Assembly (NCBI GenBank): GCA_016933215.1
Contig: JAFGBH010000069.1
Location: 1 to 59,792, forward strand
Source: Deltaproteobacteria bacterium
Lineage (GTDB): Bacteria; Desulfobacterota; Syntrophia; Syntrophales; UBA2210
Direction: 5' to 3'
Length of the DNA: 59,792 nucleotides
The translations under genes were made by a program, and so were the position numbers. Positions 6,316 through 19,837 of this stretch are shown in pieces (the stretch's first letter is position 1; each line of letters starts with the position of its first letter). The notes below the pieces were generated by a model that searched no databases, was not told where the DNA came from, and saw nothing but the letters and a program-made list of their open reading frames with translations.

Positions 6316-7323
6316 TTGAAAAAAGGAATTATTCTCGTTATTTTTCTGATTCTTCTCGTCGGTGCCGGCTTTCTCGTCTATTTCGGCCAGAGGGATGCCG
6401 AGAAGAACAATTCTTACTATTCGGGTACAATAGAGGCCACCACTTCCGAATTGTCCTTTCAGATAAGCGGACGGATCACCTCTGTGTCGGTGGATGAAGG
6501 GGCATCCGTTGAGAAGGGGCAGGTTCTGGCCGAACTTGACCGGGCCGAGTATCTGGCCCGCCGGGAACAGGCGAGGGCAAACCTCAAGGCGGCGGAGGAA
6601 ACCATAGGGAAACTCGAATCACTCCTGGAGATGCTGACGAAAACACTTCCTGCCGAGGTTGCGAGAGCCGAGGCGGGTATTGAAAGTGCGCGCGCAGTGG
6701 CACTGGAGGCAAAGAAAAACAGAGAACGTTTTGACAATCTCTTTGCCGAAAAGGTCGTTTCAAAGAGTGAATGGGAGATGGCTACCCTCCATTATGAGAC
6801 GGCGAAGGCGAAATTTTCCGAAGCCGAGGCCGTTCTGATACAGGCACAAAGCAACGAAACAAAGATAAAAACGACGAGAAAGGAAATTGAGGCGGCAGAG
6901 GCACAACTTCTGTCGTTCAAGGCTGCCCTCGATTTTGCGGATATTCAGCTCGGACACGCACGCCTTCTGGCGCCCTTTCAGGGAGTCATAACAAGTCGCA
7001 GCATAGAACTGGGGGAAGTGGTGACACCGGGACGCGAGGTACTCACCCTCTCTGATCTCTCGGCCGTGGAATTGAAGATATATGTCGGGGAGACTGACAT
7101 AGGAAGGGTGAAACTAGGCCAGCCCTGTGAGGTAAAGATTGACACCTTTCCCGACCGGTCCTATCAGGGAAGGGTTTCATTCATTTCTCCCGAGGGAGAA
7201 TTCACACCGAAGATAATACAGACCCGGAAGGAACGGGTTAAACTCGTCTATCTGGTGAAGATTTCCATTTCCAATCCGGACCGTGAATTGAAATCAGGAA
7301 TGCCCGCCGATGCCTGGTTATGA
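6316..7323 (+). CDS. HlyD-family membrane fusion protein of an ABC-2 exporter
   Basis: Periplasmic adaptor that links an inner-membrane exporter to an outer-membrane channel. The 335-residue protein has one N-terminal membrane anchor (about residues 4-23), a split biotinyl-lipoyl-like hairpin (FQISGRITSVSVDEGASVEKGQ and, later, LLAPFQGVITSRSIELGEVV) and a long alpha-helical coiled coil between (about 80-200). Size and order match YbhG of the YbhGFSR exporter. The start is TTG at 6316, the first codon giving the anchor, with only a poly-G stretch upstream as a weak ribosome site. It overlaps the next gene. Confidence 0.88.
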   Translation: MKKGIILVIFLILLVGAGFLVYFGQRDAEKNNSYYSGTIEATTSELSFQISGRITSVSVDEGASVEKGQVLAELDRAEYLARREQARANLKAAEETIGKLESLLEMLTKTLPAEVARAEAGIESARAVALEAKKNRERFDNLFAEKVVSKSEWEMATLHYETAKAKFSEAEAVLIQAQSNETKIKTTRKEIEAAEAQLLSFKAALDFADIQLGHARLLAPFQGVITSRSIELGEVVTPGREVLTLSDLSAVELKIYVGETDIGRVKLGQPCEVKIDTFPDRSYQGRVSFISPEGEFTPKIIQTRKERVKLVYLVKISISNPDRELKSGMPADAWL

Positions 7324-8152
7324 GCGCAAAAACGAAAATCCCCCTTTGACAGAGAGCGAAAACAAAATGAAAACGCCTTTGGAGAGGGAAGATCCCGAAG
7401 CGGGATTTGTCCGAATTGATAATGTCTCCATGAAGTTCGGTGAGTCTGTGGCCGTTGATAGCATCTCCCTTTCCATTCCCAGAGGTACGATATGCGGCTT
7501 TGTCGGATCGGATGGTGCGGGAAAGACGACGCTTCTCAGGATGGTCGCCACCATGATACGGCCCGACTCCGGGCACATCCTTATTGGCGGCGTTGATGTC
7601 GTAAAATCGAGGGCAAGGGCCAAAACCATCACAGGCTATATGCCCCAGCGATTCGGGCTCTATGAGGATCTTACCGTCGAAGAAAACGTCGATTTTTTTA
7701 TGGACATCTTCGGGATTCATCATGACGAGCGGGAGAGACGGAAAGAACGGTTTCTTGGATTTTCGAACCTTTTGCCCTTTGTGGATCGTCTCGCGGGGGA
7801 TCTTTCGGGAGGTATGAAACAGAAACTCGGCCTCGCCTGCGTCCTCGTTCACCAGCCCCAGGTCCTGGTCCTCGATGAGCCCACAAACGGGGTCGATCCC
7901 GTCTCCCGTCAGGAATTCTGGGATATCCTCTTTCAGATGAAGAAGGAGGAAGAGGTTACCATTCTGATCTCTACCGCCTACCTGGATGAGGGTGAAAAGT
8001 GTGACTGCCTGGCCCTGATGCATCGATCGAAGCTGCTCGATTCGGGAATGCCGGAAGTTGTGAGAGGCTCATTTCCTGATCTTGAGGAGGCGATGATTCA
8101 CCGGATTCAGGAAGCCGATGAGGGGCTTGTTCATGACAACTTCAAACTCTGA
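7310..8152 (+). CDS. ABC exporter ATP-binding protein (first of two)
   Basis: ATPase of an ABC-2 efflux system. Walker A GSDGAGKT is at 66-73, the signature is LSGGMKQK, and Walker B with D-loop reads VLVLDEPTNGVDP. The 280-residue reading corresponds to the N-terminal half of YbhF, in which two ATPase domains are fused in one chain. The start is uncertain: ATG 7310 overlaps the hlyD stop, but ATG 7367 would also leave the whole ATPase domain intact. The H-loop region reads STAYLDEGEKCD, so the usual His is replaced by Ala-Tyr, as in the degenerate half of some heterodimeric ATPases. Confidence 0.88.
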   Translation: MPGYERKNENPPLTESENKMKTPLEREDPEAGFVRIDNVSMKFGESVAVDSISLSIPRGTICGFVGSDGAGKTTLLRMVATMIRPDSGHILIGGVDVVKSRARAKTITGYMPQRFGLYEDLTVEENVDFFMDIFGIHHDERERRKERFLGFSNLLPFVDRLAGDLSGGMKQKLGLACVLVHQPQVLVLDEPTNGVDPVSRQEFWDILFQMKKEEEVTILISTAYLDEGEKCDCLALMHRSKLLDSGMPEVVRGSFPDLEEAMIHRIQEADEGLVHDNFKL

Positions 8153-8888
8153 CGCCATCCGTGTTGAGAGCCTTGAGAAGAGATTCGGTACCTTTGTCGC
8201 CGTCGATAGAATCTCCTTTTCCGTGAAAAGGGGCGAAATCTTCGGGTTTCTCGGCCCGAACGGTTCAGGAAAATCGACAACGATCCGCATGCTCTGCGGC
8301 ATTCTTATGCCCACCTCCGGGAGCGGGTTCGTGGCCGATCACGACATCTTCGAAGAGCCCGAGAAGATCAAGAAATCCATCGGGTACATGTCTCAGCGGT
8401 TTTCCCTTTATGAGGATATGACTCCCCGGGAAAACATACGATTTTATCTCGGAATTTACACTGTTTCACCCGACAGGTGGGAAGAAAAAATAGACTCGAT
8501 ACTCGATCTTACCCGCCTTCATGATGTCAGTGACAGACTTACCCGGGAATTACCTCCCGGGTGGCGGCAACGGCTGGCCCTCGGCTGCGCACTTCTCCAT
8601 GATCCCGAGATACTTTTTCTCGATGAGCCCACCTCGGGTGTGGATCCGATCACGCGTCGCCACTTCTGGCAATTCATTGGCCAGTTGGCGGAAAAGGGGG
8701 TTACCGTCTTTGTGACCACCCATTACATGGATGAGGCACGAAACTGTGAGCGGATCGTGATGCTGAATGAAGGAACAATTGTTGCCACCGGGGCACCGCA
8801 GGAAATAGTTGAAAAAGCGATACCCGATAATCCTGAAGCGGATCTGAACGAAGCCTTTGTGAAATTGATGTCGCGGGGAGAACGATGA
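8133..8888 (+). CDS. ABC exporter ATP-binding protein (second of two)
   Basis: Second ATPase subunit, 251 residues from ATG 8133. That start is preferred over ATG 8118 because GAGGGG at 8120-8125 sits seven bases upstream. It has Walker A GPNGSGKST, Walker B ILFLDEPTSGVDP and a normal H-loop VTTHYMDEA. The signature region reads ELPPGWRQRL, deviating from LSGGxxQR, as in the C-terminal half of YbhF-like ATPases. It overlaps the gene before by 20 bases and the permease after by ATGA. Together the two chains probably form a heterodimer with non-equivalent sites. Confidence 0.88.
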   Translation: MTTSNSDAIRVESLEKRFGTFVAVDRISFSVKRGEIFGFLGPNGSGKSTTIRMLCGILMPTSGSGFVADHDIFEEPEKIKKSIGYMSQRFSLYEDMTPRENIRFYLGIYTVSPDRWEEKIDSILDLTRLHDVSDRLTRELPPGWRQRLALGCALLHDPEILFLDEPTSGVDPITRRHFWQFIGQLAEKGVTVFVTTHYMDEARNCERIVMLNEGTIVATGAPQEIVEKAIPDNPEADLNEAFVKLMSRGER

Positions 8889-10018
8889 ATCTTGTACGGA
8901 TGGCTGCCATTGCGCGAAAGGAATTCTACCACCTGATACGGGACTTCAGGAGTCTCTACCTCGCCTTTGCCATCCCCCTATCGCTTATCCTCCTCTTCGG
9001 CTATGCCCTCTCCCTCGACGTGGACAATGTAAAGACTGTCGTGGTGGATAATGACAGGACTCTCGCGAGCCGTGATTTTATTGCCAAACTGGATGCGTCA
9101 CCCTACTTTCGCATCGTCGCGTACCCCGAGAGCACCCGGGAGGTCACGGGATATCTCGACCACGGCCGGGCAGCGATGGCATTGATAATACCGCCCGACT
9201 GGACGGAAAAGTTGCGGGCGGAAAGGGAATCCCCGCTCCAGGTTCTTTTGGACGGGAGCGATCCCAGCTATGCCGGTATCTCAAGGGGGTACATCACAGG
9301 ATTTGTTGAAACCTATAATCGCCGTCTCCTTTCGGATTTTCTCAACAGGAAGGGGATGGAGGATATCAATCCCCCTGTCGAGGGACGTGTCAGGATATGG
9401 TTCAATGAGGACCTTGAAAGCACCAACTTCATTATCCCCGGTATCATTGCAATTATCATCATGATCGTCGGTGCCATGCTGACCGCCCTTGTTATCGCAC
9501 GGGAATATGAAAATGGGACCATGGAGACAATCCTTTCGCTCCCTGTAGGAGCGGGGGAATTTCTCGCAGGAAAGGCGATTCCCTATTTCCTCATCGCCCT
9601 CGCCGATGTGCTCGTGGCAGCCCTCATGGGGCAGATTCTCTTTGGGGTGGTCATAAAATCGAGTTTCTTCCTGCTTTTGATTGCCGCTTCCGTTTACATT
9701 GCCGTCGCTCTCTTTCTGGGACTCCTGATTTCCGTGATTACGAAATCTCTTCTGGTCGCGAATATAGGCGCTGTACTTATTACCTTTCTTCCCTCGATGC
9801 TCCTCTCCGATTTTGTCTTTCCTATTTCAAATATGCCGAAGGTCCTTCAGGTCATTACCTACATCGTGCCCGCACGGTATTTTATCGACATCCTGAACGG
9901 ACTCTACCTCAGGAATGTGGGGTTTGACTATCTGTGGCACAATTATCTTGTCCTCACCGGCATGCTCGCGATTCTTGCCATGACGACCTTCATGAAATTG
10001 CGAAGGGAGGGCCTGTAG
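8885..10018 (+). CDS. ABC-2 type exporter permease (first of two)
   Basis: Membrane subunit of the exporter, 377 residues. One helix near residues 22-42 is followed by a large extracytoplasmic domain of roughly 140 residues and then five more hydrophobic segments, the ABC2_membrane_3 pattern of YbhS/YbhR. The conserved NFIIPGIIAIIIMIVGAM and NGTMETILSLPV segments are present. It is coupled to the ATPase gene by an ATGA overlap. It likely pairs with the next gene as a heterodimer. Exported substrates of this family (drugs, cations, lipids) cannot be told from sequence. Confidence 0.9.
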   Translation: MNLVRMAAIARKEFYHLIRDFRSLYLAFAIPLSLILLFGYALSLDVDNVKTVVVDNDRTLASRDFIAKLDASPYFRIVAYPESTREVTGYLDHGRAAMALIIPPDWTEKLRAERESPLQVLLDGSDPSYAGISRGYITGFVETYNRRLLSDFLNRKGMEDINPPVEGRVRIWFNEDLESTNFIIPGIIAIIIMIVGAMLTALVIAREYENGTMETILSLPVGAGEFLAGKAIPYFLIALADVLVAALMGQILFGVVIKSSFFLLLIAASVYIAVALFLGLLISVITKSLLVANIGAVLITFLPSMLLSDFVFPISNMPKVLQVITYIVPARYFIDILNGLYLRNVGFDYLWHNYLVLTGMLAILAMTTFMKLRREGL

Positions 10019-10019
10019 G

Positions 10020-11141
10020 ATGAGGTGGCTCAGAATCAGAGAACTGGTCAGGAAGGAGTTCATACAGCTCTTCAGAGACAAGAGAAACAGGCCGATTCTG
10101 ATCATCGTTCCCTTTATACAGCTTCTGGTATTCGGATATGTGGTCACCACGGATGTGAGAAATATTTCTGTGGGGCTTCTTGATCAGTCACAATCCAGGG
10201 AAAGCAGGATGCTTTTTGATGTCCTCGATGCCAATACAACCTATGATGTGGTCTATGCCACGGGGAACCCCCGGGAACTGGAGGAGGAACTCTTACGGGG
10301 GGAAATAGATCTGGCGGTGAAGGTGGGACCCGACTTCAGTGACCGGATACGAAGCGGTGAGACGGCGCCGGTGCAGATCCTTGTTGATGGAACGAAAAGC
10401 CATATGTCGGCGATGAAGATAGCCTATACATCCACAGTCCTGGAGGGTCTGAACAGGAAGCTCATCGGTGAGCTCTATCCTTTCAGACTGGACTACGGAA
10501 GGGTGGATGCTAGGATACGGACGTGGTACAATCCAAATCTCTACAGCAGCAATTTTTATGTCCCGGGGATCGTTGCTTTCCTGATTATGATCCTTACACT
10601 TCTTCTGACGTCCATGGCGATCGTAAAGGAAAAGGAAGTGGGAACCATGGAACAGCTTATCGTGACGCCCATAGGATCCTTCGAACTTATACTGGGGAAG
10701 ACCATTCCCTACAGTATTATCGCCATCCTGCAGATGATTTTCGTGACAATCTTTGCCATATTCTGGTTTGAGATACCGATGGTGGGAAGCATCTGGCTTC
10801 TTGTGCTCTCGACCTGCCTCTTCCTTTTGAGCACACTTGCCATCGGACTTTTTATCTCCACCGTTTCCGCCACGCAGCAACAGGCGATGATGACAACCTT
10901 CTTTTTTTTACTCCCCATGTTCATGCTGAGCGGTTTCGTCTTTCCCATCTCGAATATGCCCGAGGTGGTGCAGTGGTCGACATACCTGAATCCCGCCAGG
11001 TACTTCCTCATAATCATACGGGGAATATTTCTGAAGGGTGTGGGAATGGAAGTGCTCTGGCCTCAGCTCCTGTCGCTTCTGATTCTCGGTGTCCTTCTCT
11101 TTGAAGGTGCCGTGAGGCGTTTCAGGAAGCGGCTCGATTAG
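10020..11141 (+). CDS. ABC-2 type exporter permease (second of two)
   Basis: Paralogue of the preceding gene with the same topology: an N-terminal helix, an external domain, then NFYVPGIVAFLIMILTLLLT and EVGTMEQLIVTP, and further helices; 373 residues. It begins one base after the previous stop. Its stop at 11139-11141 is followed directly by a cluster of dispersed repeats, so this is the end of the five-gene exporter unit. It corresponds to YbhR in the E. coli system. Confidence 0.9.
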   Translation: MRWLRIRELVRKEFIQLFRDKRNRPILIIVPFIQLLVFGYVVTTDVRNISVGLLDQSQSRESRMLFDVLDANTTYDVVYATGNPRELEEELLRGEIDLAVKVGPDFSDRIRSGETAPVQILVDGTKSHMSAMKIAYTSTVLEGLNRKLIGELYPFRLDYGRVDARIRTWYNPNLYSSNFYVPGIVAFLIMILTLLLTSMAIVKEKEVGTMEQLIVTPIGSFELILGKTIPYSIIAILQMIFVTIFAIFWFEIPMVGSIWLLVLSTCLFLLSTLAIGLFISTVSATQQQAMMTTFFFLLPMFMLSGFVFPISNMPEVVQWSTYLNPARYFLIIIRGIFLKGVGMEVLWPQLLSLLILGVLLFEGAVRRFRKRLD

Positions 11142-11144
11142 AGG

Positions 11145-11267
11145 TACAAAGTGAGAGAGATGCAAAGGCACAAAGATACAGAGGCACAAAGTAATAGTTT
11201 TATTCTTTCTCTGTGCCTTGGTGCCTATGTGCCTGTGCCACTGAATAAAATCTGTGCCTTTGCACCT
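11145..11267. repeat. Cluster of GGCACAAAG-type dispersed repeats
   Basis: Short units related to AGAGGCACAAAGT and its complement follow each other irregularly; exact GGCACAAAG occurs at 11167-11175 and 11183-11191. The core 11181-11219 is an imperfect palindrome with a T-rich loop. The same core, 37 of 39 bases identical, occurs inverted at 37787-37825. The array follows the exporter operon. It is not a CRISPR: units are short, spacing is irregular and there is no spacer pattern. Confidence 0.85.
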
Positions 11268-11432
11268 TTAATGAACTCAACCGCGAGCGCATTTCCCGCT
11301 CTCTGCGGCGGGGTTAGCGAGCGAATATAAAATAAACAGTTTCCTTAATCCCGACAATCGGGATAAGTGAGTTAACGAATTTATTTTCTGCCAGAAAACA
11401 CAGAAAACAAATTCTAACTTACTAACCAAGAG
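11268..11432. other. Non-coding stretch with small inverted repeats
   Basis: No gene is visible between the repeat cluster and the HDAC-fold gene. The stretch holds a GC-rich patch with two copies of GCGAGCG and possible small stems, a hairpin ATCCCGA/TCGGGAT at 11348-11364, and an AT-rich segment with an imperfect TTTTCTG/CAGAAAA inverted repeat. It looks like accumulated extragenic repeat debris. I see no B12 riboswitch or clear promoter. Confidence 0.4.
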
Positions 11433-11464
11433 GAGATTCCCTGCAACGTGTTGCGGGGAGTTTC
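11433..11464 (+). promoter_or_regulatory. Fifteen-pair RNA hairpin ahead of the corrinoid cluster
   Basis: Bases 11433-11447 can pair with 11450-11464 over 15 positions with no mismatch if three G-U pairs are allowed; the core is CCCTGCAAC/GTTGCGGGG. On the opposite strand the three G-U pairs would become A-C mismatches, so the fold is specific to the plus-strand RNA. It ends 13 bases before ATG 11478 and takes in the GGGGAG that would serve ATG 11466. It could affect translation or mRNA stability, or be a mobile palindromic repeat. Confidence 0.5.
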
Positions 11465-11477
11465 AATGGAGGAAAAA

Positions 11478-12218
11478 ATGAAAGTCATATTCCACGATGA
11501 TTTTTACGAGTCCTACTGTTACGATCCCGCGGCAGCCCCCGGGAGGATAGAGGCGATCGTGGAGGCGATAGACGGCAGGGTTGCCTTTGTCGATGCCCTT
11601 CCCGCTTCACGGGAGGATATTGCCGCCTGTCACACGGATAGTCATATTGAGCAGGTAAAGCGGCAGGGGGTCTACGATATTGCAGCGCTTGCCGCTGGCG
11701 GTGCCATTCAGGCAGCGGAGATAGGGCTTTCCGAACCCTCTTTCGCCCTCATCCGGCCGCCGGGTCACCATGCCTCGGCAAACAGCGCCTGGGGATTCTG
11801 TTACTTCAGCAACATGGCAATCGCCATTTCCAAGCTGAAACGTGAGGGGAAGATAGGAAAGGCATTCATCCTTGATTTCGACCTTCACTTCGGTGACGGA
11901 ACAGTCAATATTCTGGGACATTCGAATTACGTTAATATCCTCAATCCCTCGACATCGGATCGATCGGCATACCTGAAAGAGGTGGCACGAGTCCTTCCCG
12001 ACGATGCCGATATCATCGGCATCTCCGCCGGCTTTGACAATCACAGGGAAGACTGGGGGGGAGTGCTCGCAACCGATGATTACCGGGAGATGGGCCGCAT
12101 GGTTCGCGAGGCGAGCGAACAAAGCGGCGGCGGCTGCTTCGCCATCCTCGAGGGGGGGTATAACCACCGTGTCATAGGTCAGAATGCAATGGCCCTCATA
12201 GAGGGGCTGGAAAAGTAA
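11478..12218 (+). CDS. Histone-deacetylase-fold amidohydrolase
   Basis: Zinc-dependent deacetylase of the arginase/HDAC superfamily, 246 residues from ATG 11478. GGAGG at 11468-11472 supports that start, although ATG 11466 is possible. Family landmarks are complete: RPPGHHA with the catalytic His pair at 97-98, DFDLH with zinc ligands D135 and H137, third ligand D187 in GFD, and the catalytic Tyr228 in EGGY. Bacterial relatives include acetylpolyamine amidohydrolases and acetoin-utilisation-like proteins. It is short for the family. It heads a plus-strand run of corrinoid genes, separated by 43 bases from the next gene; the acylated substrate is unknown. Confidence 0.88.
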   Translation: MKVIFHDDFYESYCYDPAAAPGRIEAIVEAIDGRVAFVDALPASREDIAACHTDSHIEQVKRQGVYDIAALAAGGAIQAAEIGLSEPSFALIRPPGHHASANSAWGFCYFSNMAIAISKLKREGKIGKAFILDFDLHFGDGTVNILGHSNYVNILNPSTSDRSAYLKEVARVLPDDADIIGISAGFDNHREDWGGVLATDDYREMGRMVREASEQSGGGCFAILEGGYNHRVIGQNAMALIEGLEK

Positions 12219-12261
12219 AATTAGGACCTTCACGTTACGGGTACAGTAAGGAGGGCTTATA

Positions 12262-13425
12262 ATGAGTGAAGGATCGGCTGGTCTTTTGTTGAAGGCTTTT
12301 CTTAAGGGGCGCGTTCCGCCCCCGGGCCTCATTCCGGAGGGACTGCTCTATGGTTTCGCGGGTATAAGCAGCGCACGAAGTCATCTGTCCGGGCTTACCA
12401 ATATTGAACGGCTTATCACCACCTTTTGCCATCGGGAACCCGATCATGTCCCCTGCTTTCCAATGATATCGGGGGCGGGCCGGCGTCTTACCGGTGTTTC
12501 CTACCCGGAATTTTCACAAAAACCGGAAGCCGCTGCGGAGGCGCTCCTTGCCGGGTTCGATCTGATCGGGGGAGAAGCGGTCGTTCCCATGCTCGATCTC
12601 TCGATCGAAGCGGCGGATTGGGGACAGACGATGGTATATCCGGAGCATTCCACGCCCCATCCCGACTATGCCGACCCCCTGATCAAGGATGTAGACGGCT
12701 ACGAGCGGTTGAAGAGGATCGATTTCAAAAAGGCGAATCGAATGCAGGCAATGCTCGAAACCTGCCGAATACTGGTGCGCGAAGTGGGATGGAAAGGCCT
12801 CGTTTCAGGATTTGCCTTCGGTCCTCTGGGCGTATTGAATATGATGCGGGGGGCGAATCACCTCTTCAGGGACTGTGTGAATTATCCTGCAAAGGTGCTC
12901 AAGGCGATTGAGGCCATTACCGAGGTGGCAATCGAGTATGTGGAGGCTCAGTGCGATACCGGGGTGCAGGCGGTTGCACTGGATACCCTCTTTGCCTCCT
13001 GGAACGGTCTCAGTAAAGAGCTCTGGGAAAAAATTGAGGGGCCCTTTGCTCGGGAACTTGCCAATGCGGTACGCCGCAGGGGATGTGTCGTGGTGGTGCA
13101 TAACTGTGGAGACGGCGTCTATTTTGATTCTCAAATACGATTCATGGAGCCGGAAGTGATTACCTTTGCAGCGCTTCCCGATGACTGCAGAGATAGAAAG
13201 GAATTGAAGCAAAAATACGGCGACCAGGTCGTTTTGATGGGATATGTCGACACACCTCTTCTCAGCTACGGTACCCCCTACGATGTGATGGAGGAGTGCA
13301 GAAGACAGATCGAGGATCTCGCCGACGGAGGGGGTTTTATATTGGCGCCGGGCTGTGAATTTCCACCCAATGGACCGTTGGAAAACGCTCTTGCCGTGGT
13401 GAAGGCGGCAGAGATGTATGGGTAG
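12262..13425 (+). CDS. Uroporphyrinogen decarboxylase-family corrinoid methyltransferase
   Basis: A 387-residue UroD/MtaA/CmuA superfamily TIM-barrel protein. It is very unlikely to be the haem enzyme, because it carries the zinc site of cobalamin methyltransferases: His280 and Cys282 in VHNCGDG and Cys365 in APGCEFPP. A corrinoid-protein gene follows 18 bases later. It should move a methyl group between a small acceptor or donor and the corrinoid protein. The start has AGGAGG eight bases upstream. The methyl donor (methoxyaromatic, methylamine, betaine or other) cannot be read from sequence. Confidence 0.85.
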   Translation: MSEGSAGLLLKAFLKGRVPPPGLIPEGLLYGFAGISSARSHLSGLTNIERLITTFCHREPDHVPCFPMISGAGRRLTGVSYPEFSQKPEAAAEALLAGFDLIGGEAVVPMLDLSIEAADWGQTMVYPEHSTPHPDYADPLIKDVDGYERLKRIDFKKANRMQAMLETCRILVREVGWKGLVSGFAFGPLGVLNMMRGANHLFRDCVNYPAKVLKAIEAITEVAIEYVEAQCDTGVQAVALDTLFASWNGLSKELWEKIEGPFARELANAVRRRGCVVVVHNCGDGVYFDSQIRFMEPEVITFAALPDDCRDRKELKQKYGDQVVLMGYVDTPLLSYGTPYDVMEECRRQIEDLADGGGFILAPGCEFPPNGPLENALAVVKAAEMYG

Positions 13426-13443
13426 GGCAACAGGGAGGGGAAA

Positions 13444-14097
13444 ATGACCGTTGAAAAAGGGAACGAAACAGTTGTCCATGATCTGGCAGAAGCGGTAAGG
13501 GCTCACGATGAAAGGGCACTTCATGCACTCTTTGATGATGCTTCAACATCGGGCATGACAGCACCGGAGGTTCGTCGCGCCCTCATCGGCGGCCTGGAAG
13601 AGGTGAGGCAGAATCTGATGTCGAATGACGCCTCGATACCGGATTTTCTTCTCTCTCTCGATAGGGTAACGGAAGGACTCGGCAGGCTCTCTCGCTTCCC
13701 CGGATATGACAGGAGTTCTGTTGAGGACACAACAGTTGTGATCGGTGTTGTCGAGGGTGATCCCCACGACCTTGGGAAAAATGTTATCGCCGGTATTTAC
13801 GGGGCTTACGGATACCGCGTCGTCGACCTCGGACGTGAAGTATCCCGGGAGACATTTGTGAAAGCAGTGGTACAAGAGGGCGCCGAGGTCCTTGCCCTCT
13901 CGGCGATGATGTCGACGACCATGGTTGTCATGCGTGATGTTATCGGGGAGGTAAGGATCAAATCTCCCGGCACATTGGTCATCGTGGGGGGTGCCCCACT
14001 CAACGATGTCCTGGCACAGGCATATGGAGCGGACGGTTATGCCGAATCCGCCATCACTGTCCTTGAAGAAACAGAGAGACTCATGGCGGGATCATGA
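13444..14097 (+). CDS. Corrinoid (B12-binding) methyl carrier protein
   Basis: Small cytoplasmic methyl carrier, 217 residues. An N-terminal helical cap (about 1-95) precedes a cobalamin-binding Rossmann domain with DPHDLGKN at 106-113, in which His108 is the lower cobalt ligand, followed by LSAMMSTTM and GGAPLN. These are the DxHxxG, SxL-like and GG signatures of MtaC/MttC/MetH modules. The ribosome site GGGAGGGG lies close to the ATG. It sits between a UroD-type methyltransferase and a MetH-activation-domain protein, which completes a carrier-plus-partner set. Confidence 0.92.
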   Translation: MTVEKGNETVVHDLAEAVRAHDERALHALFDDASTSGMTAPEVRRALIGGLEEVRQNLMSNDASIPDFLLSLDRVTEGLGRLSRFPGYDRSSVEDTTVVIGVVEGDPHDLGKNVIAGIYGAYGYRVVDLGREVSRETFVKAVVQEGAEVLALSAMMSTTMVVMRDVIGEVRIKSPGTLVIVGGAPLNDVLAQAYGADGYAESAITVLEETERLMAGS

Positions 14098-14819
14098 TGC
14101 AGGAGGAGACCGTTCTCTCGAGAGAGTTTGATGGAAGTTTTATAAGGAAATTACGGAGGGGTGTCCGGGAAAAGCTGGGATATAGCGTCGGGGAAAGAGC
14201 GGTACCCGAAGAGATAGAAAAAACCCTGGATGATGCCGTAGCTGCGATAGAGAAGTATACCGTTTTCAGGGTGATCTATCGTGTCCTTCCCGTCGGGAAG
14301 ATTGACGAACGTGGTATTCATACGAAAGCGGGAATGATCAAAAGCGTTATGCTTTCCCGCATCGCCCGTCAGTGCAAAGGGAAACGATTTGCAGCGTTCA
14401 TGGTGGCGACCCTGGGAGGTGAGTATGAAGGCATTGGTGATGCACGGGAATCGCTGACCGAACGCTTTGTATTCGATATGGCGGGTTCGGAATGTATTGA
14501 AATGGCGGCGGATGTGCTCGAGGCCGAGTGGAAGAAAGGGGTCAAAAGCCGGGATTTTGCCTACAGTCTTCGTTTCAGCCCCGGATACTGTGACTGGCCT
14601 CTTGAGGGTCAGGCGGTACTATTCAATGCCCTCGATGCAGGAAGAATCGGCGTCCGTCTCACCCCGCACTCCGTGATGATACCGAAAAAATCCATCTCAG
14701 CCGTCGCACTCATGGCTGAAGAGGTGCCCGTGGTGAGCCCCTGTGTATTCTGTCAGAAGGGAGATTGTCCCTGGAGGAGAGGCGCGCCTGATAAAGAAGA
14801 TAAGAAGTTAGTGAGGTGA
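14094..14819 (+). CDS. MetH activation-domain protein, probable corrinoid reactivation partner
   Basis: A 241-residue protein resembling the AdoMet-binding activation domain of B12-dependent methionine synthase, seen as a stand-alone unit. The central motif SPGYCDWPLEGQ matches the family's R/SPGY...P..Q signature. The tail carries a Cys cluster, SPCVFCQKGDCPW, with three Cys. In MetH this domain supplies the methyl group for reductive repair of oxidised cobalamin. The gene overlaps the corrinoid-protein gene by ATGA, so the two are made together. A role in reactivating that carrier is the natural inference. Confidence 0.8.
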   Translation: MMQEETVLSREFDGSFIRKLRRGVREKLGYSVGERAVPEEIEKTLDDAVAAIEKYTVFRVIYRVLPVGKIDERGIHTKAGMIKSVMLSRIARQCKGKRFAAFMVATLGGEYEGIGDARESLTERFVFDMAGSECIEMAADVLEAEWKKGVKSRDFAYSLRFSPGYCDWPLEGQAVLFNALDAGRIGVRLTPHSVMIPKKSISAVALMAEEVPVVSPCVFCQKGDCPWRRGAPDKEDKKLVR

Positions 14820-14822
14820 AAA

Positions 14823-15641
14823 ATGTCCGACTACGGTGTACGTCTGGAGTGGAAGGGGCATGTGGTGATCATGACCTTTGACCGGCCCGAGAGGCTGAAC
14901 GCCTTCGATGAGAAGATGTGGGGGAGTTTCGAGGAAGCCCTGACGAAGCTGAAAGAAAAACTTCCCCGCGCCTTAGTGGTGACGGGTGCCGGGGAGAGGT
15001 CCTTTTCCGCCGGTTTTGACATCAATCCTGAAAACCCGCAGGTGGCGAATCTCATCGAAGCGGTCATGAACCGTGACCGTGGCCCTGTTGATATATTGAT
15101 AAATCGCGTAAGAAAGGCGGTAGATGAGCTTGTCTTTCTGCCCGTTCCCGTGATTGCAGCGCTGAACGGCGATGCCTACGGGGGCGGGGCGGAGATTGCC
15201 GTCAGGTGCGACATGAGGGTGATGGACCCCGGTGCCTGTATCTCCTTTTCCGAGGTAAAACTGGGACTCATGCCCGATCATGGGGGTGTCGTGGGACTCA
15301 CGCGGCTGGTGGGGCCCGGAAGGGCCGCCGATTTGATCCTCACGGCGCGAAAGATTCCAGCGGATGAGGCCCTGAAACTCGGTATCGTGAACCGCATAAG
15401 TGCTCACGGGAAGGCACTTGAAGAGGCCGAGGCCCTTGCCCGGGGAATTGCTGAAATGGGACCCCGTGCGGTACGCCATGCCCTCGAGGTTATACGGCGC
15501 ACCCCCGATATTCCCCAGAGGGAGGCCCTTGATCTGGAGACGGAAAAGGCCGTGACCCTTATCGCCTCGGGTGAATGTTATCACGGTATTCTCGCCTTCT
15601 TGGAAAAGAAGAAGCCTGAATTCCCCGATCCGCCTGACTAA
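14823..15641 (+). CDS. Enoyl-CoA hydratase/isomerase family protein
   Basis: Crotonase-fold protein of 272 residues acting on a CoA thioester. The oxyanion-hole segments SFSAGFDIN and NGDAYGGGAEIAVRCDMRV are present, and acidic residues occur at both usual catalytic positions (GGAEIA and SFSEVKLGLMPDHGG). It begins three bases after the previous stop with a GAGGTG ribosome site, so it is the last gene of the corrinoid cluster. Whether it hydrates, isomerises or performs another crotonase reaction is open. Its link to methyl transfer is unexplained. Confidence 0.88.
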   Translation: MSDYGVRLEWKGHVVIMTFDRPERLNAFDEKMWGSFEEALTKLKEKLPRALVVTGAGERSFSAGFDINPENPQVANLIEAVMNRDRGPVDILINRVRKAVDELVFLPVPVIAALNGDAYGGGAEIAVRCDMRVMDPGACISFSEVKLGLMPDHGGVVGLTRLVGPGRAADLILTARKIPADEALKLGIVNRISAHGKALEEAEALARGIAEMGPRAVRHALEVIRRTPDIPQREALDLETEKAVTLIASGECYHGILAFLEKKKPEFPDPPD

Positions 15642-15683: not shown

Positions 15684-16007
15684 TTAAAAACGTATCTGTG
15701 CCAGGGGATAGCTGCTCTCGAGAATTCTTGCTATCTCGCTTTTCTCCTCGGGATCTACGATCGGTTCGACCTCGCTGACATCGAGACCCGATTCATCCTT
15801 TCCGTGTTTCCACGATAGTAAATACCCGGGGATGTCGATGAAGATGCAGCCGCCCACGCCGCAGCATGAGTTATCCACATGCCCCTCTCCGACGACGCAG
15901 AGGATGTCCCTCCCTTTATAGGAGAGTAACTCTTCTTTCAGGTAGGAATATCCTCCCGAGATGGTCTTAATCTCCGAGTGGAGTTCTTCGTGGGTGTACC
16001 GTTTCAT
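15684..16007 (-). CDS. Uncharacterised Cys-rich small protein
   Basis: A 107-residue protein I cannot assign. It contains a compact cluster NSCCGVGGCIFI near residue 48, which looks like a metal or cluster ligand set, flanked by hydrophobic strands (DILCVVGEG and FIDIPGYLLSW). There is no signal peptide. It lies 20 bases downstream of mnmE on the same strand and is the last gene of the rpmH-mnmE unit, converging on the enoyl-CoA hydratase gene. The acidic C-terminal part has EVEPIVDPEEKSEIARILE. Length and neat spacing argue for a real gene. Confidence 0.7.
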   Translation of the reverse strand: MKRYTHEELHSEIKTISGGYSYLKEELLSYKGRDILCVVGEGHVDNSCCGVGGCIFIDIPGYLLSWKHGKDESGLDVSEVEPIVDPEEKSEIARILESSYPLAQIRF

Positions 16008-16027: not shown

Positions 16028-17404
16028 CTATTTCCCTATGCAGAAGCGGGAGAAAATACTGTCGAGGACCTCTTCGGTGGTCGTCACCCCGAGGATTTCG
16101 CCGAGATGATCGAGTGCTTCTCTTATTTCAAGTGAAGGGAGTTCGGGAGAAAAACCACCTGAGATACCTTCCCCGGCGGCGATACACTTTGCCAACGCCC
16201 CTTCGAGGGCCGTCTTGTGACGAAGATCGGTGACGATGATATCGGGATTGTTCCCCCCATTCTCACGAACAACGAGTGAGTGGATCTTCTCTTTCATCTC
16301 GGGGATTCCCTCACCGTATTTCGCCGATATCCAGAGCGGTTCCACCTCGGGGATCCTTTTACGAAGAGAATCGGCGGTCAGTTTCTGAGGGAGATCCGAT
16401 TTGTTCACCACCAGCGCGATCGTTCTCCCCCTGTTACGGTCGATTATTTCACGATCCTCCTTTGTGAGATCTTCACTTCCGTCGAGGAGTATTATGACCA
16501 CGTCGGCAGCTTCCGCCTTCTCCCAGACGAGGGCGATTCCTTCGCTTTCTATTTCTTCTCTCGTGTCCCTGATCCCCGCCGTGTCGACGAACGTGACCGG
16601 CAGTCCCTGTATTGAGACCGTCTCTTCAATAAAATCTCTCGTCGTTCCCGGTTCTGTTGTGACGATGACCCTTTTTTCTCCGAGGAGCCTGTTCATAAGG
16701 CTCGACTTTCCCACGTTTGGTTTGCCCGTTATGACGGCGCTGACACCTTCCCGGTGAATTTTCCCCTCGCTGTATGTGGAGAGGATACCCTGTATGTCGC
16801 GAATGACATGACCGATTTTTTCCGTAAGTTCTTTTATATTCAGAGGTTCTGCATCATCTTCGCCGAAGTCGATGGATGTCTCCAGGTGCGCCAGTATCTC
16901 GATGAGTGATTCACGAAGTGATCGTGTCTTTGCCGAGAGATCTCCCCTGAGGTGTGAAAGGGCAAATTCGAGGCCCCTCGGGGACTGCGCCTCGATCAGT
17001 TCCATGACGGCTTCTGCCTGTGAAAGGTCGAGGCGGTTGTTGAGAAAGGCCCTCTTGGTGAACTCTCCCGGTTCTGCGGGACGTGCCCCGGTCTTGATAA
17101 CCTCTCCGAGAACATTTTTCAGTATAAAAGGTCCGCCGTGACAGTGTATCTCCAGCGTGTCCTCACCCGTGTAGGAGTGGGGGGCTTTCATGAAAACCGC
17201 AAGGACCTCGTCGAGGACGGTTTTCGTCTCGGGCGAGACTATCTCGCCATGGCAGAGGCGGTGGGTTTCAAGGGGAACGTTTCCTTTCTTCGGCCTGAAG
17301 AGGGCACGGCAGATTTCCTCCGCCTGAGGGCCGCTAACCCTTATGATTCCTATCCCGCCCTTTCCTTCGGGCGTGGCAATGGCCGCTATGGTTTTTTCCT
17401 GCAC
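16028..17404 (-). CDS. mnmE: tRNA uridine-5-carboxymethylaminomethyl modification GTPase MnmE
   Basis: GTPase that with MnmG modifies the wobble uridine of certain tRNAs using a folate C1 unit. At 458 residues it has the normal length. The N-terminal folate-binding domain begins TIAAIATPEGKGGIGIIRVSG, the G domain carries GKPNVGKSS, DTAGIRDT and NKSD, and the chain ends with the diagnostic CIGK, whose Cys is essential. It follows jag by 65 bases in the classic rpmH-rnpA-yidD-yidC-jag-mnmE order. Confidence 0.97.
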   Translation of the reverse strand: MQEKTIAAIATPEGKGGIGIIRVSGPQAEEICRALFRPKKGNVPLETHRLCHGEIVSPETKTVLDEVLAVFMKAPHSYTGEDTLEIHCHGGPFILKNVLGEVIKTGARPAEPGEFTKRAFLNNRLDLSQAEAVMELIEAQSPRGLEFALSHLRGDLSAKTRSLRESLIEILAHLETSIDFGEDDAEPLNIKELTEKIGHVIRDIQGILSTYSEGKIHREGVSAVITGKPNVGKSSLMNRLLGEKRVIVTTEPGTTRDFIEETVSIQGLPVTFVDTAGIRDTREEIESEGIALVWEKAEAADVVIILLDGSEDLTKEDREIIDRNRGRTIALVVNKSDLPQKLTADSLRKRIPEVEPLWISAKYGEGIPEMKEKIHSLVVRENGGNNPDIIVTDLRHKTALEGALAKCIAAGEGISGGFSPELPSLEIREALDHLGEILGVTTTEEVLDSIFSRFCIGK

Positions 17405-17469
17405 GGTAAATTATTATTGAATGTAGGGGTTGATGTTTGGGGCCCATCCACCGAGGGGCCCAGTATCAT

Positions 17470-18195
17470 TTACTTTCCTTTTTTTGTCGGTACGATAATG
17501 ATCTTGCGAAAGGCCCCCTCGCCTCGACTCTTTGTGGTCAGGCCCTTGTCGTTTTGAAGGGCGAGGTGGATGATGCGACGGTCGTGGGCATTCATGGGGC
17601 TTACGGTGACGGATTTTCTCATCCTCTTTGCCTTTGCCCCCAGTTTTTCGGCCAGGGCAATCAGGTTTTTTTCCTTCTTCTTTCGGTAGTTTTCCGTATC
17701 CAGGATGATTCTCTTCCGGTCTCTCCCGTTTTTGTTCAACGCCTTGTTGACAATATACTGAAGTGCATCCAGCGTCTGCCCGCCCCTTCCGATAAGGAGA
17801 CCGCTCCCGTCACCCTTTATGTCGAGAACGACGTATTCATCTTCCCTGGCGGCATTGACGGGAAAATCAATTCCCATCCTCGAGAGGATGCCTTCGAGCA
17901 TCTCCTGTGCCTCTTTCGATATGGTTGGATCGTCGAACGTTTCCGGTGCCGACTCTTCGGGTGGCGCCGCAGGATCTCGCTTCGTTTCCTCTTCAACACC
18001 GTCTATCGTAATGTCGATGGACATAACACTTGCCCTGATAAGGGCCTTTTTTGATCCAACGAGTCCAAGAAAGCCAGAGGTCCCTTGCGACAGTATTTCG
18101 ATATTCAGTTTTTCTCTGGGCAGATTGAATTCTTTACAGGCCTTTTCGATTGCATCATCGATGGTTTTTCCTTCTATCTCAATAGGGTCATTCAT
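17470..18195 (-). CDS. jag: Jag/SpoIIIJ-associated RNA-binding protein (KhpB-like)
   Basis: A 241-residue cytoplasmic RNA-binding protein. An N-terminal Jag_N domain (about 1-55, beginning MNDPIEIEGKTIDDAIEKAC) is followed by an acidic linker, a KH-like domain with LIGRGGQTLDALQYIVNKA, and a C-terminal R3H domain ending around PMNAHDRRIIHLAL. It lies 19 bases after yidC, the usual partner gene. It is thought to influence translation or envelope growth; exact targets are not known. Confidence 0.93.
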   Translation of the reverse strand: MNDPIEIEGKTIDDAIEKACKEFNLPREKLNIEILSQGTSGFLGLVGSKKALIRASVMSIDITIDGVEEETKRDPAAPPEESAPETFDDPTISKEAQEMLEGILSRMGIDFPVNAAREDEYVVLDIKGDGSGLLIGRGGQTLDALQYIVNKALNKNGRDRKRIILDTENYRKKKEKNLIALAEKLGAKAKRMRKSVTVSPMNAHDRRIIHLALQNDKGLTTKSRGEGAFRKIIIVPTKKGK

Positions 18196-18214
18196 TGCTG
18201 CTACCTCATCGTAA

Positions 18215-19837
18215 TTATGTCCGCTTGTTGATATAATACTGCTGCCCGATGCTCAGGATGTTGTTGAATAACCAGTATATTACCAGTCCCGACGGAAAGT
18301 TCAGGAACAAGAAGGTAAATACAACAGGCATCCACATCATCATCTTTGCCTGCATCTCGTTTCCCCCCGGTGTGGGGCTCATCTTCTGCTGCAGGAACAT
18401 GGTGGCACCCATAATTATTGGCGTGATGTAATAGGGGTCCTTTGCCGAGAGATCCTGTATCCAGAAGAAGAATTCTGAATGTCGGAGCTCAATGGAGTAG
18501 AGAAGTGCCCTGTAGAGCCCGAAAAACACCGGTATCTGGATCAGCATCGGGAGGCATCCTCCCATGGGGTTCACCTTGTGAACCTTGTAGAGTGCCATTG
18601 TTTCCTGCTGCAGTTTCGCCTTGTCATCGGGATATTTTTCGCGAAGCTTCGCCATCTGTGGCTGGAGCTTCTGCATTTCCTTCATCGATTTGTAGCTCAT
18701 GTTGCCCAGGGGCCAGAAGATGATCTTTACCAGTGTGGTCAGTATGATGATTGCGATGCCGTAGTTATGGACATACTGGTAGATGAATTTCAGGACGGTC
18801 AGAAGGGGGATGGAGAGCCACTTTATCCATGAGCCGAAGTTGATTGAATTTTCCAGGCCCACATTCTCTGCCTTGAGAAGATCGTAATCCTTGGGCCCCA
18901 GATAGAGGATATACCGGAATACACCCGACTGATTTGAGGGTATGACGAGCTTTGGACCTTCCAGGCTTGTCGAGACAAGTTCCCTTGCATCCTTTGAAAT
19001 GACGAGGCCCGTGAGGGATGGTTGCTCCGGTATCATTGCGGCCAGAAAGTACTTGCTTTCAAAACCTCCCCAGGAGACATCGGGCCCGAAGAACTTTTTT
19101 TCATCGAGTTTCTTTACCTTTTCCGTGATGAAGTCGTCTTTGACATAGGAAACGGGTCCCTCATGACTATAACGGTCCGTCTTTTCCTCAGGATCGATAT
19201 ACCTGGTCCACGTGAGGAGGGCGTTCTCTCTGAGTGCATGGTCCGAGAGGTTCCGCACCTGCACCTCAAGGTCGAAGGTATACTTCTCAGGTTGGAAGGT
19301 ATAGGTCTTCACTATTTCGATCTCTCCCGGATAGGACCAGGAAAAGACCAGACTTTCTTTCCCCTCCGACATGGTTATATCCACTGTCTCCCTGTCGGCC
19401 TCGTAGACCACGTCGGTGGGAATGTCTATGCTGGAGCCGGGGAATGAAACGGTAAGGGGGTAGTCCATCCCCTCTCGTACATGTATCAATTCTATGAGGG
19501 CCGAATCTTTTTTGATATCTTGCCGGTAATTCTTAAGGGTGAATGATTTCAGCGCCGCGCCCCTGGTGCTGAAGGTGGCGGAGTAAAGCGGGGTTTCAAT
19601 GCTGATGTCGTTCCCCTCGCCTTTATTCTCTCCCTTTTTTTCCAGTGACTTTTGGTAGAGGGGGACATCTCCGGTTTTAATTTCAGCAGGTGATTCATCA
19701 CCCTTTGCTGTCTCAGTAACAGCTTCCTGGTTTACAATCTCGGTAGTTCGGGGTGGCTGGGTTTTTGCCACGTAGAACTGATACCCCATCAGTATTGCGA
19801 GTGAAAGGACTACGGCGAGAACCGTCCTCTTGTCCAT
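18215..19837 (-). CDS. yidC: Membrane protein insertase YidC
   Basis: Inner-membrane insertase, 540 residues, the long Gram-negative form. It has an N-terminal anchor (MDKRTVLAVVLSLAILMGYQ), a large periplasmic beta domain (about 60-345) and the conserved five-helix 60KD_IMP core starting near YGIAIIILTTLVKIIFWPLG. The MGGCLPMLIQIPVFFGLYRAL segment and a short basic tail are as expected. It lies between yidD and jag. It assists folding of respiratory and ATP synthase membrane subunits, alone or with Sec. Confidence 0.97.
   Translation of the reverse strand: MDKRTVLAVVLSLAILMGYQFYVAKTQPPRTTEIVNQEAVTETAKGDESPAEIKTGDVPLYQKSLEKKGENKGEGNDISIETPLYSATFSTRGAALKSFTLKNYRQDIKKDSALIELIHVREGMDYPLTVSFPGSSIDIPTDVVYEADRETVDITMSEGKESLVFSWSYPGEIEIVKTYTFQPEKYTFDLEVQVRNLSDHALRENALLTWTRYIDPEEKTDRYSHEGPVSYVKDDFITEKVKKLDEKKFFGPDVSWGGFESKYFLAAMIPEQPSLTGLVISKDARELVSTSLEGPKLVIPSNQSGVFRYILYLGPKDYDLLKAENVGLENSINFGSWIKWLSIPLLTVLKFIYQYVHNYGIAIIILTTLVKIIFWPLGNMSYKSMKEMQKLQPQMAKLREKYPDDKAKLQQETMALYKVHKVNPMGGCLPMLIQIPVFFGLYRALLYSIELRHSEFFFWIQDLSAKDPYYITPIIMGATMFLQQKMSPTPGGNEMQAKMMMWMPVVFTFLFLNFPSGLVIYWLFNNILSIGQQYYINKRT

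Follow-up and report, generated by a model that had tools for sequence, protein, structure and literature searches.

A probably mobile three-gene corrinoid methyl-transfer module with a putative cysteine-tailed activator at an old HDAC locus in Syntrophales

Five co-directional open reading frames (ORFs) occupy the + strand at positions 11478–15641 of contig JAFGBH010000069.1 (59,792 nucleotides, the whole of which is referred to as the window) in the assembly GCA_016933215.1 of a deltaproteobacterium of the order Syntrophales. They encode an HDAC-fold amidohydrolase (HDAC), a UroD-fold corrinoid methyltransferase (MT), a corrinoid carrier protein (CP), a MetH-activation-domain-like reactivase (AE), and a crotonase-fold enoyl-CoA hydratase/isomerase (ECH). 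Only MT-CP-AE forms a conserved module, which is probably mobile and is found at unrelated loci. In the window, we consider it probable that this corrinoid methyl-transfer module, directed at sulfur or selenium and reactivated by AE, has come to lie, together with an ECH gene that otherwise stands alone, in the space separating an old HDAC gene from orf107-mnmE. The interest of the locus rests mainly on AE and its cysteine-containing tail. The initial annotation had named the five genes correctly: Pfam supports all of them, AE falling just below the cut-off and being backed by a match to a protein of solved structure. Genomes, contigs, and loci are designated below by G, C, and L, respectively, the host being G000.

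The conserved unit is MT-CP-AE

The MT subfamily was detected in 4 of the 155 genomes of the order, a set that was identical in class-level and order-level searches, and in 14 of the 395 genomes of the phylum sample. Besides the host, 11 genomes carry MT-CP-AE with the gene order kept (G096, G035, G031, G282, G194, G229, G155, G417, G528, G189, and G475), some of these loci ending at a contig boundary. An HDAC or ECH ortholog was never found beside the trio in these 11 genomes. The identities of MT, CP, and AE correlate across genomes (Mantel p ≤ 0.0008). This shared order and correlated divergence bear out the methyl shuttle that the initial annotation had recognized, and the coupling of CP and AE that it described is seen in the sequence as an ATGA overlap. 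It had also offered the idea that HDAC and ECH are partners of the shuttle in one pathway. This part is not supported: the five-gene order is not kept, relatives have the corrinoid genes alone, which is the observation that the initial annotation had named as refuting its idea, the HDAC locus is also found devoid of the trio, and both outer genes are more widely spread at other loci.

Two loci (L033 and L118) contain MT and CP without AE. The genes flanking the module differ from place to place: leuABCD, a split MetH activator, and MetH in G031 and G035, an enolase gene in L033, a MerB-like gene in L034, and no common partner at the other loci examined. The MTs of G282 and G417, genomes of a different family that is not part of the order, resemble the window MT more closely than do the MTs of G031 and G035 from its own order. 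This fits horizontal transfer of the trio as a unit.

A single contig scan with MT as query returned two loci only. A second MT-CP-AE trio lies in the host genome at 9569–14061 of L105 (G000:C93:8000-25339) and encodes a 396-residue UroD protein, a 235-residue CP, and a 227-residue AE; another tailed AE, divergent in sequence, and two FAD-linked oxidases are encoded close by. In L034 (also numbered L107), a gene for a MerB-related protein at 9007–9912 closely precedes MT-CP-AE and itself follows a weak flavodoxin-like match. The organometal substrate hinted at by this gene was set aside, as it occurs in one genome and its best NCBIfam match, SaoL, scores 43 bits against a cut-off of 140.

HDAC is resident at an old locus

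The HDAC-fold protein is near-universal in the order, with a match in 150 of the 155 genomes; most of these are orthologs of 59–82% identity and of the same short length of 246 residues. It usually adjoins mnmE, and the arrangement mnmE-jag-yidC next to HDAC, as in the window, was found at 8 of the 12 HDAC loci inspected. HDAC lies next to orf107/mnmE in L065 (G096), L066 (G095), L069 (G111), and L070 (G140). In the closest relatives, L065, L066, and L070, the HlyD/ABC/ABC/permease/permease genes are also upstream in the same order as in the window, and orf107 directly follows HDAC. None of MT, CP, AE, or ECH is present at the mnmE-linked HDAC loci of relatives, these four included. The site is therefore occupied in the window and empty in relatives. 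The clearest case is G096, where the empty HDAC site is on C66 and a 74% identical MT, accompanied by CP and AE, is on C12, followed by rplU-rpmA-obg.

HDAC is not part of the methyl-transfer module. By its motif content, it is assigned to the zinc-dependent HDAC family: PPGHHA, DFDLHFGDG, SAGFD, and EGGYN, which would supply the catalytic His-His pair, the D-x-H and D zinc ligands, and the catalytic Tyr, are all present, and the protein aligns with HDAC6 chains. It may act as a protein or small-molecule deacylase, a separate job from that of the trio with which it would share at most a transcript. A protein-acylation economy has been described in syntrophs, with sirtuins as the sole deacylases mentioned (PMC9676460); a role for HDAC in it is speculation.

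ECH is a stand-alone neighbor

ECH has its own wider distribution and is outside the conserved module. About 25 genomes of the order contain an ortholog, at 55–68% identity, the next level of identity being at most 38%. No MT, CP, or AE was found at the eight ECH-ortholog loci that were fetched. Conversely, in G031, G035, and G096, which carry MT-CP-AE, the HDAC and ECH orthologs are on other contigs. Since the HDAC locus is empty in relatives, ECH occurs elsewhere, and the trio occurs without the outer genes, the five genes do not constitute one pathway, and a tempting five-gene scheme is thereby removed.

Probable sulfur or selenium chemistry of MT and CP

In an alignment of 323 residues, MT shares 26% identity with the methylcobalamin:coenzyme M methyltransferase 4ay7. 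Its zinc motif, H280-x-C282 ... C365, aligns with the H-x-C and PGC motifs of this enzyme; H-x-C is invariant across all 18 orthologs, and PGC across the 17 whose sequences extend that far. A His-Cys-Cys zinc site is the mark of the S-methyltransferases of the superfamily, the O-methyltransferases having replaced Cys (PMC10418091). CP carries the cobalt-ligand motif DPHDLG (DxHxxG) and matches the corrinoid proteins 1y80 and 7xcn at about 1e-23.

The host genome, a draft estimated to be 97.8% complete, was searched by protein family. Pterin-binding proteins are limited to FolP and a MetH without activation domain, both on other contigs, and no dedicated folate methyltransferase (MTII) was found near the trio or in the assembled genome. 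CdhD-family proteins (of carbon monoxide dehydrogenase/acetyl-CoA synthase) and RACo/RACE-type activases (PF14574) gave no match in it either. With FolP and MetH as the only pterin-binding proteins and no CdhD, a folate route through a dedicated MTII is not encoded in the assembled sequence. A selD gene (G000:C61:84488-85417) indicates that the host uses selenium, and its single in-frame TGA that SelD is probably itself a selenoprotein. The host MetH is unlinked to the trio. It is split (L106, G000:C72, 2952–5992): the start codon of the 799-residue MetH abuts the stop codon of a distinct gene, which encodes an untailed 213-residue activation protein.

Judged from these sequence features, methyl transfer directed at sulfur or selenium, of the kind proposed for mlp clusters, is the best-supported reading, both substrate and acceptor being inferred. 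The His-Cys-Cys zinc of MT would bind a soft sulfur or selenium atom, and MT would move a methyl group between this atom and the CP-bound corrinoid, which would alternate between Co(I) and CH3-Co(III). One MT could run both half-reactions, as MtsA does, from a methyl-sulfur or methyl-selenium compound to a thiol. AE would rescue accidentally oxidized Co(II)-CP by reductive methylation dependent on S-adenosylmethionine (SAM), like the activation domain of MetH, with the electron perhaps passing through its Cys tail. HDAC and ECH would perform separate jobs, with at most one common transcript.

Cys-tailed AEs as putative activators

AE scores 23.0 bits with Pfam Met_synt_B12, just below the 25-bit cut-off, and matches the structure 1j6r of the split MetH-activation protein of Thermotoga at 1.2e-4. 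The SAM motif RxxxGY is present as RFSPGY, within RFSPGYCDW, and the protein ends in a tail of the form C217-x2-C220-x4-C225-x2-RR. This CxxCx(4-5)C..RR tail is invariant in the 11 AEs aligned. Both the tail and the Cys of GYCDW are absent from the activators partnering MetH in the host (C72) and in G031 and G035. Relatives of AE are found in 84 of the 395 genomes of the phylum, and the matches to the AE profile fall mostly into two groups, those that reach the tail and those that end at positions 204–210, the latter including MetH itself. The tail was considered as a feature specific to the trio, an idea dropped because it is widespread in the phylum.

Genes of the MttB family of methyltransferases directly adjoin tailed AEs in L133, L135, L138, L139, and L140; in L139, a glycine-betaine binding protein is also encoded next to the AE. 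The neighbors of the other tailed AEs inspected include a UroD protein (L146), corrinoid proteins (L130 and L143), a B12-binding radical SAM protein (L147), and a RACE protein (L148). These associations suggest that tailed AEs act on corrinoid proteins that stand alone. That the tail holds a metal site is a guess. In known catabolic corrinoid systems, reactivation is performed by ATP-dependent RACE proteins. We tentatively propose, as a possibility that we do not favor outright, that the Cys-tailed MetH-activation proteins are distinct SAM-dependent corrinoid reactivases with a metal site, perhaps an Fe-S center formed by the tail Cys and the Cys of GYCDW, which throughout the phylum replace ATP-driven RACE in the service of the stand-alone corrinoid proteins belonging to methyltransferases of the UroD and MttB types; the trio of the window would be a minimal module for sulfur or selenium methyl recycling that uses one of them. 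A literature search for MetH-type activators in corrinoid clusters, with subscription journals outside its range, gave no clear match.

The trio points to a less studied form of upkeep of corrinoid methyltransferases, in which a SAM-binding, Cys-tailed relative of the MetH activation domain stands beside UroD- and MttB-type enzymes in the phylum. If the proposal is true, the tailed activator would change the genome-based reading of methyl-sulfur, methyl-selenium, and methylamine use in these anaerobes.

Gene layout

The distances between HDAC, MT, CP, AE, and ECH are 43, 18, −4, and 3 bp, and the features of the locus are listed in table 1. No promoter-like or terminator-like site was found on the + strand inside the five-gene block; read-through across the block is possible, given that no terminator-like site interrupts it. 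The ATG start of HDAC is preceded by GGAGG, and an alternative GTG start at 11448 is possible. Imperfect repeats of the TCTGTGCCTTGGTGCCT type occupy the intergenic region 11142–11460 upstream of HDAC and are absent from the relative L065; other repeat tracts are present near the HDAC end of the locus in L066 and L070.

Table 1. Features of the locus (positions in the window).
Feature	Position	Strand	Evidence and remarks
ABC exporter (HlyD, two ABC ATPases, two permeases)	6316-11141	+	Also upstream of HDAC in L065, L066, and L070, order unchanged
HDAC, HDAC-fold amidohydrolase	11478-12218	+	Pfam Hist_deacetyl 2.3e-38; resident gene of the locus, outside the module
MT, UroD-fold, MtaA/MtbA-like corrinoid methyltransferase	12262-13425	+	Pfam URO-D 1.8e-57; module core
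CP, corrinoid carrier protein	13444-14097	+	Pfam B12-binding 1.1e-22, B12-binding_2 4e-5
CP stop/AE start ATGA overlap (translational coupling)	14094-14097	+	Read from sequence
AE, MetH-activation-domain-like reactivase	14094-14819	+	Pfam Met_synt_B12 6e-5
ECH, crotonase-fold enoyl-CoA hydratase/isomerase	14823-15641	+	Pfam ECH_1 1.9e-46; neighbor outside the conserved module
orf107, marking the right edge of the empty site of relatives	15684-16007	-	Next to HDAC in L065, L066, L069, and L070
mnmE, jag, yidC, ancestral right-hand neighbors of HDAC	16028-19837	-	Locus comparison with relatives

Alternative explanations

Several points weigh against a mobile, sulfur- or selenium-directed, AE-reactivated module. 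A search around the trio for insertion signatures, flanking repeats or a shift in composition, gave nothing convincing and no scar. The 3-bp spacing and shared direction of AE and ECH make co-expression possible in this one lineage, and in G475 (L034/L107) AE is followed, at a distance of about 1.25 kb and beyond an ORF on the opposite strand, by a crotonase paralog (26% identity, not an ortholog). The His-Cys-Cys zinc site of MT favors a sulfur or selenium substrate and does no more than favor it. An AlphaFold model of AE built from two sequences had a mean predicted local distance difference test score of 44 and was discarded as too poor. Finally, gene absences from a draft assembly are not proof.

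Unlikely, in our view, is a supply of methyl groups linked to methionine, in which MT-CP would methylate homocysteine or another thiol in a salvage route cooperating with MetH. The trio of G031 and G035 does lie between a MetH-type activator and MetH, such a route has been proposed for mlp clusters not linked to selenium (PMC10418091), and the His-Cys-Cys zinc would suit the thiol of homocysteine. However, this MetH link is confined to two species of one genus, the neighbors elsewhere being rplU-obg, enolase, or none in common, and the host MetH on C72 is apart from the trio.

We give still less credit to a catabolic demethylase feeding methyl groups from methoxyaromatics, methylamines, or betaines to tetrahydrofolate. 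UroD-fold O-demethylases do exist (VdmB, OdmB, MtvB, and MtoB) and a methyltransferase with a corrinoid protein and an activator is their usual layout (PMC13222342), but the lack of a nearby MTII and of CdhD, the restriction of pterin-binding proteins to FolP and MetH, and the sulfur/selenium type of the MT zinc site all argue against this role, and the enzymes acting on betaines and trimethylamine have the MttB fold rather than that of UroD. Equally improbable is that ECH has functionally joined the module in this lineage only, for example to act on the CoA ester of a demethylated acid, with HDAC unrelated. The 3-bp gap is compatible with this, as is the presence in ECH of both predicted catalytic Glu positions (GGGAEIA and FSEVKLG), but the arrangement is known from a single genome, and ECH orthologs of the same family are found away from any MT-CP-AE trio. 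A five-gene catabolism, in which the HDAC-fold enzyme would deacylate a substrate, the shuttle demethylate it, and the crotonase process its CoA ester, agrees with the shared direction, short gaps, and uninterrupted block but is largely refuted and very hard to credit, as HDAC is nearly ubiquitous across the order, unaccompanied by the other four genes, an empty-site version of the locus exists, ECH has orthologs elsewhere, no MT locus of other genomes carries either outer ortholog, and the block contains no CoA ligase or uptake gene.

Comparison with known systems

The MT-CP-AE module is a variant of anaerobic methyltransferase systems already described, from which it departs slightly. It shares with the type 1 mlp clusters (Mlp1-3, corrinoid protein, and Ram/RACE) and with SdmC of M. 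voltae an MtaA-like UroD methyltransferase with His-Cys-Cys zinc, one corrinoid protein, and an activator, as well as the lack of a folate methyltransferase in the cluster and a selenium-using host (PMC10418091). As required of a type 1 mlp cluster, MT exceeds 25% identity to an SCMT with the zinc ligands conserved (26% over 323 residues to 4ay7; HxC...PGC), the corrinoid protein is co-directional, and no folate methyltransferase lies within 20 kb. The definition also calls for at least two Mlps and a Ram/RACE activase; the block has one UroD gene, the second of the genome being part of the other trio on a different contig, and the activator of the block is of the SAM-binding MetH-activation type, in a genome without a RACo gene.

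The dimethylsulfide:coenzyme M methyltransferase MtsA/MtsB of Methanosarcina, in which MtsA is described as performing both half-reactions (Tallant 2001, as cited in PMC10418091), likewise combines a single UroD-type enzyme with His-Cys-Cys zinc and one corrinoid protein. It differs in that its acceptor is coenzyme M and its activator is of another kind, whereas the trio is bacterial and its acceptor putative. The O-demethylase and chloromethane systems of acetogens, composed of methyltransferase I (MTI), CP, MTII, and AE (VdmB, OdmB, MtvB, and CdmBCA; PMC13222342), have a UroD-fold MTI, a corrinoid protein, and an activator in common with the trio, which has neither MTII nor a RACE-type AE and whose zinc ligands are of the sulfur/selenium type. 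Lastly, the MetH activation domain and the split activators (T. maritima TM0269, PDB 1j6r, and the host AE1 on C72) share with AE the SAM-binding R-x-x-x-G-Y motif and probably the fold family, but the AE of the module has GYCDW and the CxxCx(4-5)C..RR tail, and is encoded with MT and CP rather than with MetH.

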